The notes under the pieces were generated by a model. It was not told where the DNA came from and did no database searches. It saw only the letters and a list, made by a program, of their open reading frames with translations. A program made the translations under genes and the position numbers. Positions 23,661 through 55,505 of a stretch of DNA of 64,000 nt are shown piece after piece. Numbering within the stretch: the first letter of the stretch is position 1; the number at the start of each line of letters is the position of its first letter. Origin of the DNA: Blastomonas sp. AAP53. GTDB taxonomy: Bacteria; Pseudomonadota; Alphaproteobacteria; Sphingomonadales; Sphingomonadaceae. Where the stretch lies: contig NZ_ANFZ01000006.1 in NCBI RefSeq assembly GCF_000331245.1, forward strand, positions 186,001 through 250,000, given 5' to 3'.

Positions 23661-23784
23661 GTCCCTCGATTTCGCTCGGGATAGGCGGGCTGGGGAGTGA
23701 TCGGCTTCAGACACGGCTCATATGTTTGTCGCTGCTGATCCGCTGAAACCCCGTCCCGTGTTCCCGAGCGAAGTCGAGGGACGT
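23661..23784. repeat. Inverted pair of the GTCCCTCGACTTCGCTCGGG repeat
   Basis: The left arm 23661-23680 (GTCCCTCGATTTCGCTCGGG) and right arm 23761-23784 (TTCCCGAGCGAAGTCGAGGGACGT) are complementary with one difference, separated by 80 bases. The same arm recurs at 50103-50167 and inside mtaB at 55059-55114. Together with flanking bases it fills the space between the histidine kinase gene and hemB. Confidence 0.75.
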
Positions 23785-41898: not shown

Positions 41899-42010
41899 TC
41901 CGCTCAGCCTGAGCCTGTCGAAGGCCCCGCTATATGGCCAGCGTGGGCGCGGGTCCTTCGACTTCGCGGGCTAAAGCCCGCTGCTCAGGATGAGCGGGGG
42001 TGGTGCGGGG
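41899..42010. repeat. Copy 2 of the ~105-bp composite repeat
   Basis: CGCTCAGCCTGAGCCTGTCG at 41901-41920, then GGTCCTTCGACTTCGCGGGC and GCTGCTCAGGATGAGCGGGGG, in the same order and orientation as copy 1 at 41447-41552 with only scattered differences. Together with the next element it fills the 319 bases between the orphan gene and the LysR gene; I see no gene there. Confidence 0.75.
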
Positions 42011-46016: not shown

Positions 46017-46121
46017 GCGGGGCCTTCGACAGGCTCAGGCTGAGCGGAGGGGGGATGCGCGGGGCAGCGTGGCGATGTAATGCCCAAAGCCCGCTCAGCC
46101 TGAGCCTGTCGAAGGCCCCGC
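46017..46121. repeat. 31-bp perfect inverted repeat between mmsB and the aldo/keto reductase gene
   Basis: Arms 46017-46047 and 46091-46121 are exactly complementary over 31 bases, core CAGGCTCAGGCTGAGCGG and its inverse, with a 43-base spacer. It lies between two convergent genes, so it may act as a shared transcription terminator or is a REP-type element. It belongs to the same family as the arms at 41451-41473 and 41901-41923. Confidence 0.85.
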
Positions 46122-50102: not shown

Positions 50103-50167
50103 TCCCGAGCGAAGTCGAGGGACGTATGCGCAACGGTAGCGCGCGCGTCCCTCGACTTCGCTCGGGA
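50103..50167. repeat. 22-bp perfect inverted repeat (GTCCCTCGACTTCGCTCGGG family)
   Basis: Arms 50103-50124 and 50146-50167 are exactly complementary (right arm starts CGTCCCTCGACTTCGCTCGG) with a 21-base loop. It lies between the DUF1272 gene and thiD and shares its arm with 23661-23784 and with the copy inside mtaB. Confidence 0.85.
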
Positions 50168-53182: not shown

Positions 53183-54105
53183 TTCGCTCCTCCGGCGATC
53201 ACATGCGCCAGATATTCGGGGTCAAAGGGCCTGAGGTCATCGATGGTTTCACCGACGCCGATGGCATGAATGGGAAGGCCGAACTTTTCCGCCGCCGCGA
53301 CCAGAATGCCGCCGCGCGCGGTGCCATCGAGCTTGGTCATCACCAGACCTGTAACGCCGGCGACCTCCTTGAAGGTCTCGATCTGCGACAGGGCGTTCTG
53401 CCCATTGGTCGCATCGAGCACCAGCACGACATCGTGCGGCGCTGCCGGGTTGAGGCGGCCCAGAACGCGGCGGATCTTGGACAGCTCGTCCATCAGCTCG
53501 CGCTTGTTCTGCAACCGGCCTGCGGTGTCTACGATCAGAACATCGATGCCCGTCGCCGTCGCCTGCTTGACCGCGTCGAACACGATGCCCGCCGCATCGC
53601 CGCCTTCCTTGCCGCTGATGATCGGGATGCCCAGCCGTTCGGCCCAGACCTTGAGCTGGCCGATCGCCGCTGCGCGGAAGGTATCGCCTGCCGCCAGCAT
53701 CACGCCATAATCCTGTTCCTGGAACAGGTGCGCGAGCTTGGCGATGGTCGTTGTCTTGCCCGACCCGTTGACGCCGATCACCAGGATCACCTGCGGGCGC
53801 GGGAAGGCGATGATGTCGAGCGGTTCAGCGACATTGCGCAGCGACTTGGCGATCTCCTCGCCGACGATCGCGCGCAATCCGTCCTCGTCCAGTCCGCGCT
53901 CGAACCGTCCTTCGGAAAGCCGCGCGCGCACCTTGCCCGCCATCTGCGGCCCCAGATCGCTGACGATCAGCGCCTCCTCGATCTCGTCGAGCTGGTCCTC
54001 ATCAAGCCGCGACTTTGTGACCAGCCCGGTGATGTTCTGGGTCAGCTTGTCGGACGTCTTGCGAAAGCCGCCCAGCAGGCGCTCGCTCCAGCTGCCCTCG
54101 CTCAT
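53179..54105 (-). CDS. ftsY: Signal recognition particle receptor FtsY
   Basis: FtsY is the SRP receptor GTPase that docks Ffh-bound ribosomes at the membrane. The 308-residue protein has the N domain (LGGFRKTSDKLTQNI), G1 GVNGSGKTTTIAKLA, DTAGRLQNK (G3), TKLDGTARGG (G4 region) and GVGETIDDLRPF (C-terminal). It lacks the long acidic A domain of E. coli FtsY, as usual in alphaproteobacteria. Overlaps mtaB and ispZ by 4 bases each. Confidence 0.95.
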   Translation of the reverse strand: MSEGSWSERLLGGFRKTSDKLTQNITGLVTKSRLDEDQLDEIEEALIVSDLGPQMAGKVRARLSEGRFERGLDEDGLRAIVGEEIAKSLRNVAEPLDIIAFPRPQVILVIGVNGSGKTTTIAKLAHLFQEQDYGVMLAAGDTFRAAAIGQLKVWAERLGIPIISGKEGGDAAGIVFDAVKQATATGIDVLIVDTAGRLQNKRELMDELSKIRRVLGRLNPAAPHDVVLVLDATNGQNALSQIETFKEVAGVTGLVMTKLDGTARGGILVAAAEKFGLPIHAIGVGETIDDLRPFDPEYLAHVIAGGAK

Positions 54106-55505
54106 ATTCTTATCTCCGCTGTCAGCGTGTCGCCATCCTGCCCTGTGATCGTCACTGGCACGATCCTTCCGATATGGGAAGGATGCGCCTCTGGCAAAGC
54201 GATGCGCACAAAGTTTTCGCCATGGCCGGTGCGCCCGTCGCGCTCGACCAGCAGGTTCTGGTGGGTGCCGACCAGCGAGCCGCGCCAGCGATGGGCGCGG
54301 GCCGAGGCTGCCGCGCGCATTTCGGCGGCGCGCGCCTTGACCAGGGCGCGATCGAGCTGCGGCATCCGCGCGGCGGGCGTTCCGGTCCTGGCTGAGAAGG
54401 GGAAGATATGGCCGTGGACGACATCGCAGGCATCGAGGATCGAGAGGTTCTGCGCGTGCATCGCGTCATCCTCGGTGGGGAAACCCGCGATCAGGTCTGC
54501 GCCGATGGCGATGTCGGGCCGCTTCGCCTTCATCCGCTCGACCAGCGTGATGGCCTGGGCGCGGCTGTGGCGGCGCTTCATCCGCTTGAGGATCATGTCG
54601 TCACCCGACTGCAGCGACAGGTGTACGTGCGGCATGATGCGGGGTTCGCCGGTGATCAGGTCGAACAACCGGTCGTCCACCTCAACCCCGTCGAGCGAGG
54701 ACAGGCGCAGGCGTTGCAGCGCTGGCACGAGCTTGAGAATACGTTCGACCAGCATGCCCAATGTGGGCGATCCGGGCAGGTCGGGGCCATAGCTGGTGAC
54801 GTCCACCCCGGTCAGCACGACCTCGGCATAGCCGCGCTCGACCAATGCGCGCACCGCATCGACGACCGCGCCTGCGGGGACCGAGCGGCTGTTTCCGCGG
54901 CCATAGGGGATGATGCAGAAGGTGCAGCGATGGTCGCAGCCGTTCTGCACCTCGACAAACGCGCGGGCATGTTCGGCAAAGCTGGTGACCATGTGCGGCG
55001 CGGTCTGGCGCACGGCCATGATGTCGGAGACCTTCACCCGGTCACCAACATCTCCGAGTTCCCGAGCGAAGTCGAGGGACGTTTCGCTGCCCTCGCGCGC
55101 ACGTCCCTCGACTTCAGCAAATGGCTGAAGTTTATCCTGAGTGACGCCGACAGGCGGCGTCGAAGGGCTCGGGACAGACGGAAAGGGGAAGAAAGCTGGG
55201 AGCAACTTCTCCACATTCCCCAGCACCCGGTCGACCTCGGGCATCGCGGCGAACATCGCAGGGTCGGTCTGCGCCGCGCAGCCGGTGACGATGACCTGCG
55301 CGTCGGGCCGCGCCTTGCGGGCCTTGCGGATGGCCTGGCGGGTCTGGCGCACCGCCTCGTTGGTGACCGCGCAGCTGTTGATGACGATCACGTCGTCGCG
55401 CCCCGCGAGCAGCCCGCGCATCGCCTCGCCCTCGGCAATGTTGAGGCGGCAGCCCATCGAGATGATCTCGGGGCCGGTCGGGGCAGGGGCAGGCAATGCG
55501 GACAT
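54102..55505 (-). CDS. mtaB: tRNA t6A37 methylthiotransferase MtaB with a repeat-derived insert
   Basis: MtaB adds a methylthio group to t6A37 of tRNA. The 467-residue protein has the N-terminal cluster Cys (Cys19 in MGCRLN, Cys45 in NSCAVT, Cys76 in VTGCAAQ), the radical-SAM CxxxCxxC at Cys190-Cys194-Cys197 (NGCDHRCTFC) and a TRAM-type C-terminus. Between the N-terminal domain and VSDIMAVRQTAPH, residues about 104-152 are an insert rich in Pro and Ser (PSVPSPSTPPVG) that family members lack; its DNA is a palindromic repeat (55050-55196). The frame is preserved. Start ATG 55505, five bases after dapF. Confidence 0.9.
   Translation of the reverse strand: MSALPAPAPTGPEIISMGCRLNIAEGEAMRGLLAGRDDVIVINSCAVTNEAVRQTRQAIRKARKARPDAQVIVTGCAAQTDPAMFAAMPEVDRVLGNVEKLLPAFFPFPSVPSPSTPPVGVTQDKLQPFAEVEGRAREGSETSLDFARELGDVGDRVKVSDIMAVRQTAPHMVTSFAEHARAFVEVQNGCDHRCTFCIIPYGRGNSRSVPAGAVVDAVRALVERGYAEVVLTGVDVTSYGPDLPGSPTLGMLVERILKLVPALQRLRLSSLDGVEVDDRLFDLITGEPRIMPHVHLSLQSGDDMILKRMKRRHSRAQAITLVERMKAKRPDIAIGADLIAGFPTEDDAMHAQNLSILDACDVVHGHIFPFSARTGTPAARMPQLDRALVKARAAEMRAAASARAHRWRGSLVGTHQNLLVERDGRTGHGENFVRIALPEAHPSHIGRIVPVTITGQDGDTLTAEIRI
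55050..55196. repeat. Palindromic repeat element inside mtaB
   Basis: The element contains the GTCCCTCGACTTCGCTCGG arm at 55059-55082 and an inverted copy at 55101-55114 (14-bp perfect stem AAGTCGAGGGACGT / ACGTCCCTCGACTT), plus a second stem GACGCCG/CGGCGTC at 55143-55161. It encodes about 49 extra residues of MtaB in frame. The same arm is intergenic at 23661-23784 and 50103-50167. Confidence 0.8.

Follow-up and report, generated by a model that had tools for sequence, protein, structure and literature searches.

The mtaB gene of Blastomonas sp. AAP53 carries in its reading frame a copy of a palindromic repeat that is dispersed through the genome, and repeats of several kinds were found in the same inter-domain linker of MtaB, the tRNA N6-threonylcarbamoyladenosine methylthiotransferase, from other sphingomonads. 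The explanation that very probably accounts for the whole of these observations is that a dispersed palindromic element was inserted in the linker and tolerated there, and that the linker is a recurrent landing site. The original prediction, made from the window (the whole 64,000-nucleotide stretch of DNA analyzed here), had placed a dispersed palindromic repeat in frame between the domains of this one protein; because further sphingomonads have repeats from other families in this linker, the mtaB insert is not a single odd case.

The palindromic element in mtaB and its genomic copies

The ORF was assigned to MtaB because its product scores above the cut-off of the equivalog model (NCBIfam TIGR01579; E 4.9e-121, 404.9 bits versus a cut-off of 357.05) and contains both Pfam domains, UPF0004 (residues 15-97) and Radical_SAM (residues 185-349). 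The nearest named mtaB loci are from Sphingomonadaceae. The bounds of the element were set by eye from the ends common to its genomic copies and from two genomes of the same genus, G001 and G095; the window's own genome is labeled G000.

54105-55505, minus strand: mtaB, tRNA N6-threonylcarbamoyladenosine methylthiotransferase, with in-frame insert (ORF, 467 aa from ATG)
55054-55181, minus strand: long composite palindromic element, in frame, about 128 bp, residues ~109-151 (shared ends of copies)
55068-55082: left arm of a 15-bp perfect inverted repeat (inverted-repeat search)
55101-55115: right arm of the same inverted repeat (inverted-repeat search)
55112-55130: CTTCAGC/GCTGAAG hairpin inside the long-form module (by eye; hairpin predicted by RNA folding)
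55143-55161: GACGCCG/CGGCGTC hairpin inside the long-form module (by eye; hairpin predicted by RNA folding)
23661-23782: another genomic copy, with arms in plus and minus orientation (a 310-aa ORF with no Pfam match runs through it)
50105-50165: another genomic copy, a short dimer (arm matches)

The interval first proposed, 55050-55196, located the element to within some 15 bases but was slightly wide, and the perfect hairpin, given as 14 bp, is 15 bp long. Nor is the insert a single hairpin: in mtaB the repeat takes a longer, composite form, in which a module with two further hairpins splits one arm. The CTTCAGC/GCTGAAG hairpin is missing, as judged by eye, from the short copy in the G001 mtaB. 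Other stretches of G000 match the composite, i.e., C2:183934-184063 (query 12-141, 84%), C7:62736-62856 (query 19-138, 84%), and C11:64545-64638 (query 13-106, 90%). The minus-strand RNA from 55045 to 55200 was predicted to fold at -77 kcal/mol, whereas 200 shuffles gave -52.9 (sd 3.8), corresponding to a z-score of -6.3.

Because the element contains no stop codon and the reading frame is kept through mtaB, the cell should translate it, and the open frame, taken together with the selection on the gene described below, suggests that it does. Translation would yield a disordered loop, about 43 residues long, which MtaB would tolerate. In an AlphaFold2 model built from 37 sequences (mean pLDDT 76.0), the longest stretch with pLDDT below 50 is formed by residues 110-152, the others being 1-7, 195-205, and 302-309. 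The insert region is therefore predicted to be a disordered, length-tolerant linker between the UPF0004 and radical-SAM domains, in agreement with the early suggestion that an insert at this position may be tolerated.

The arm of the repeat, GTCCCTCGACTTCGCTCGG, occurs five times in the window at up to three mismatches (positions 23661, 23764, 50105, 50147, and 55062), where 0.05 matches were expected from shuffles; the two sites outside mtaB that had been named beforehand, 23661 and 50103, are among them, the latter at 50105. Genome-wide, there are 66 exact matches and 83 at up to two mismatches, compared with none for the reversed control, which bears out the claim of dispersal. In the stretches of G000 that were read, 50 loci hold 85 arms at up to three mismatches. 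A frequent arrangement is a dimer in which CCGTCTGT-CCCGAGCGAAGTCGAGGGACGT, or a similar sequence, is separated by about 20 variable bases from its reverse complement; elsewhere the arms are single or reversed in order. Sizes are about 62-80 bp for the short dimer and about 130 bp for the longer composite. On average, 5.0 of the six frames are free of stops in the short dimers of G000 (n=16 dimers), which would help their survival in genes. No ORF with at least 20 residues on both sides runs through the copy at 50105-50165.

Recurrence of repeats in the MtaB linkers of sphingomonads

Three states of mtaB exist in the window's genus: the long form of the element in G000, the short form in G001, and an empty site in G095. 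The search for the insert in relatives, proposed with the original prediction, confirms the extra residues, as the VLGN-to-DIM stretch comprises 67 residues in the window's MtaB and 24 in that of G095; the latter lacks both the residues and the repeat, the reverse of a homolog having the same residues without the repeat DNA. The G095 genome nevertheless contains many repeats of families 2, 3, and 4, defined below (34, 27, and 64 matches, respectively), so having many repeats in the genome is not enough for the site to be filled. Target-site duplication was not evident by eye in pairs of filled and empty mtaB, including L160.

For the survey, mtaB was read in 136 loci from the 147 family genomes with a match and in 80 named GTDB loci, giving 216 rows and 212 distinct MtaB sequences, and the linker census was based on their alignment. 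G030, G113, and G072 were left out of the family loci; L020 and L052, whose long linkers hold no recognizable repeat, were scored as unclear, and L022 as having no insert. An assigned repeat is present in the linker of 27 of the 212 distinct sequences, all from sphingomonads: 21 of the 136 family loci, leaving 115 without an assigned insert, and six further GTDB loci. Inserts were absent from the 18 GTDB loci titled as other orders, where the longest linker is 48 residues. Assignment to the four motif families was made by motif and by eye.

Family 1 (the window's, TCGACTTCGCTCGG): L009, L010, L012, L015, L016, L017, L042, L058, L158, L170
Family 2 (GAGC..GTCGAAGG and relatives): L018, L040, L173
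Family 3 (CGTC REP type): L013, L014, L019, L050, L051, L053, L165, L180, L245
Family 4 (CCTCCC/GGGAGG): L037, L232, L167, L258, L251

Families 1 and 2 have a GAGC...GTCGA core in common and may be related, while families 3 and 4 are unlike these and each other, which leaves at least three mutually unrelated kinds. The GN-to-RAF linker is mostly about 25 residues long without the DIM stretch and 38-66 with an insert; where the DIM stretch is present, the corresponding lengths are 37-48 and 62-102. The longest perfect inverted repeat exceeded the best of 20 shuffles in 15 of the 25 nonduplicate insert rows (L170 and L245 stand outside this comparison), and the other 10 rest on the reading of motifs by eye. 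L037 and L232, from one genus, share an 82-residue stretch of linker from GN to DIM, which consists of a pair of GGGAGGGG palindromes around some 40-50 further residues.

The other families, too, are dispersed repeats in carrier genomes. The CGTC-type pattern of family 3 gave 17-161 matches in six carriers (reversed control, 0), and the CCCCTCCC/GGGAGGGG pattern of family 4 gave 32-133 in five carriers (reversed control, 0-1). The family-2 pattern, CCTTCGAC..GCTCAGG, has 61 matches in G128 (reversed control, 0); in G027, whose L173 is filed under family 2, the exact pattern has none. This repeat is also found in the window, at 41908-41924, 46023-46039, and 46099-46115, and 47 times in its genome. 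The exact arm of family 1 is present in 23 genomes, seven of which have the family in mtaB. Beyond the window's genus the count is five of 20 exact-arm genomes (two of the five are from one genus), compared with about 0.04 expected in 20 genomes if about eight host genes are drawn from some 3,800, the gene number being assumed.

Changes of state and selection on mtaB

On a single FastTree tree of MtaB without bootstrap (linker excluded, 216 rows, 362 columns), the presence of an insert requires at least 21 changes, or 19 if the two unclear rows are treated as empty, and 25 if the family is taken as the state, gains and losses being pooled in each count. Close relatives also differ: L014 (family 3, CGTC type) and L015 (family 1), in genomes G129 and G053, belong to one genus, and two Sphingobium species have a family 1 insert (L042) and a CGTC-type insert (L051), their relatives L045 and L047 being empty. 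L019 is filled and L160 of the same genus is empty at a distance of 0.042, and the same holds for L040 and L021 at 0.076.

A single ancestral insert that was later lost, or overwritten through recombination between dispersed copies, might be considered, given that G000 and G001 carry the long and short forms at the same place and that the repeats are abundant donors. This scheme is very unlikely, however, because homology cannot let unrelated families overwrite each other and because the empty linkers between filled lineages have the usual length. The pattern is better explained by repeated insertion, in which four repeat families, at least three of them unrelated, would have entered the sphingomonad mtaB linker many times.

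In eight pairs involving insert carriers, dN/dS in both domains is 0.03-0.15. The linker values, taken from same-family pairs because pairs of mixed family or with an empty partner compare unrelated letters, are 0.39, 0.15 (with synonymous change saturated), and 0.44, above those of the domains in each of the three pairs. MtaB is hence under constraint, its linker less so, and the enzyme with the insert is presumably active. It is scarcely credible that mtaB is dispensable and decaying and that the inserts are mere damage. Some genomes may have lost the gene, since eight of 147 (G010, G019, G022, G029, G040, G105, G106, and G112, counted as without mtaB) yield weak matches only, of paralog strength (1e-41 to 1e-46), two of these being less than 90% complete; but MtaB is split across two ORFs at none of the 216 loci, and the low dN/dS of the domains comes from pairs that include insert carriers.

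The insert might alternatively be adaptive, if an mRNA hairpin or a longer linker aided cotranslational folding or iron-sulfur loading and its gain was selected. The many state changes at one domain boundary and the strong predicted fold in the window would fit such a role, which we regard as highly improbable because 115 of the 136 family loci carry no assigned insert, the site in same-genus G095 is empty, 10 of the 25 inserts have no strong perfect hairpin, and the linker has a higher dN/dS than the domains in the three same-family pairs. A broader version, that the linker serves as a landing pad on which unrelated hairpin repeats were gained because a structured mRNA or an extended linker was useful, for example for a folding pause, is also unlikely. 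If it were true, mtaB would represent a natural, replicated experiment in the growth of proteins from mobile DNA. With about twenty state changes, several families, close relatives that are empty or differently filled, and a paralog control, the mtaB linker allows measurements of the conversion of dispersed DNA into protein sequence, including which frames survive, at what rate the new residues change, and whether tolerance or benefit is the driver.

Tolerance rather than benefit would explain the hot spot. A small dispersed palindromic element was presumably inserted into the part of mtaB that encodes the inter-domain linker; such elements would insert widely, most hits in genes would be lost, and those that keep the frame would survive where extra residues are tolerated.

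Comparison with MiaB and the second loop of MtaB

MiaB has the same architecture as MtaB, and by eye its equivalent linker holds no such insert in any of 30 genomes. Because these genomes, 19 with an insert in mtaB, were selected for mtaB inserts or repeats, they form a paired rather than a random control. This difference would be expected if the mobilizing enzymes of several families recognized some feature of the DNA in the mtaB linker that biased insertion, and by eye the inserts do start no more than a few codons past a conserved GN..K......(F/Y) motif. Such a target preference is nonetheless rather unlikely: unrelated families would need one common target, the starts scatter across several codons with no shared target or duplication visible by eye, and repeats also seem to be present in a second loop of MtaB, which lies in the C-terminal TRAM region. 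In that loop, family-2 motifs were recognized by eye in L077 and L089, a CGTC-like repeat in L167, and family 4 in L170, so that it, too, seems from its sequences to have been entered. L094 has probably repeat-derived residues in the TRAM-region loop, again as judged by eye, and L033 and L067 are doubtful cases.

Relation to known repeats

In-frame palindromic repeats have so far been described as scattered cases in Rickettsia and other bacteria. Rickettsia palindromic elements are characterized in a review as dispersed palindromes of about 100-150 bp that lie in frame within conserved genes (PMC2229807), and the element in the window's mtaB resembles them in being a dispersed palindrome in frame in a conserved protein-coding gene. 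The resemblance noted at the outset thus holds for the manner of insertion but not for identity with a Rickettsia element: the organism is different, several families occupy one linker in many genera, and the comparison is one of form and placement. Coding MITEs (ERIC, Yersinia RU-2, and Correia) are outlined in the same source as small nonautonomous repeats whose open frames are fused into genes (PMC2229807). The window's element, with its open frame within a gene and its terminal 15-bp inverted arms (outer ends set by eye), is similar to these; no target-site duplication was seen by eye in filled and empty pairs of mtaB, and the search for a parent transposase covered PF01797, with no match in G000 or G001.

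The CGTC REPs described by Di Nocera et al. (2013) are composed of a CGTC tag, a stem of 8-9 bp, a loop of 4-5 nt, and a CCA tail, have intragenic copies and no dedicated transposase, and include REPs at about the same recB site in Xanthomonas campestris and X. oryzae (PMC3733652). Family 3 linker repeats such as GTCATCCCGGCGAAGGCCGGGATCCA in L019 look like them, with tag, stem, and CCA tail; by eye, the tag and hairpin are seen in L014, L019, and L180, and the tail in L019 and L180. The family 1 arm of the window follows a C (CGTCCC...) and has a short stem of its own by eye, and from these features it is not clearly a CGTC REP. The sections of that paper on CGTC families and genome distribution do not mention a linker entered repeatedly by several families, as we report here, and methylthiotransferase and MiaB are absent from its main text, the list of host genes being in the supplement (PMC3733652). 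A search of the open-license literature in PubMed Central found no report on repeats in MtaB.

The REP-associated tyrosine transposase (Y1_Tnp, PF01797) was matched in 24 of 149 family genomes and in five of 14 control genomes, and in neither G000 nor G001. An origin of the repeats through a REP transposase in the window's genome was set aside on account of this absence.

In-frame repeats in other genes

MtaB is not alone in carrying such repeats in frame. Among the 50 repeat loci of G000, two lie in genes (mtaB and ispE) and two more probably do, in genes for a BchD-like protein and a periplasmic binding protein; 35 ORFs running through repeats were listed, and 30 were scanned with Pfam. The ORF for the BchD-like protein (AAA lid and VWA; L123 6980-8761) contains the long composite form. 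In G021, a genome of the same family whose MtaB is identical to that of Sphingobium boeckii, eight of the 71 repeat loci listed near exact arms are in genes: mtaB and, with Pfam support, hrpB, a SIR2 protein gene, putA, ligA, a lipoyl acyltransferase gene, carA, and ychF (26 loci have a through-ORF, of which 24 were scanned, one is mtaB, and L378 was left out). Both censuses sought ORFs open through the element, a design by which gene-breaking repeats would be missed. Among the loci listed for G021, mtaB is the only host gene in common with G000.

The ispE-like GHMP kinase gene of G000 (L136 2231-3160; C9:553230-554156) contains an in-frame short dimer of family 1 at residues 84-104, which is common to G000 and G001 and of which G095 keeps a short remnant. 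In other genomes, IspE has a CGTC-like insert (G053) and another insert in a different loop (G129), and no further insert of at least 10 residues was seen between query residues ~60 and 205 in the 30 genomes (L338 of G094 is partly unreadable). IspE has therefore also been entered, but in fewer of these 30 genomes than MtaB and at two places. Repeats that are in frame within Pfam domains were also observed in G021, in the SIR2 protein (L348 1698-2510), LigA (L358 160-2376), and YchF (L370 3876-4973).
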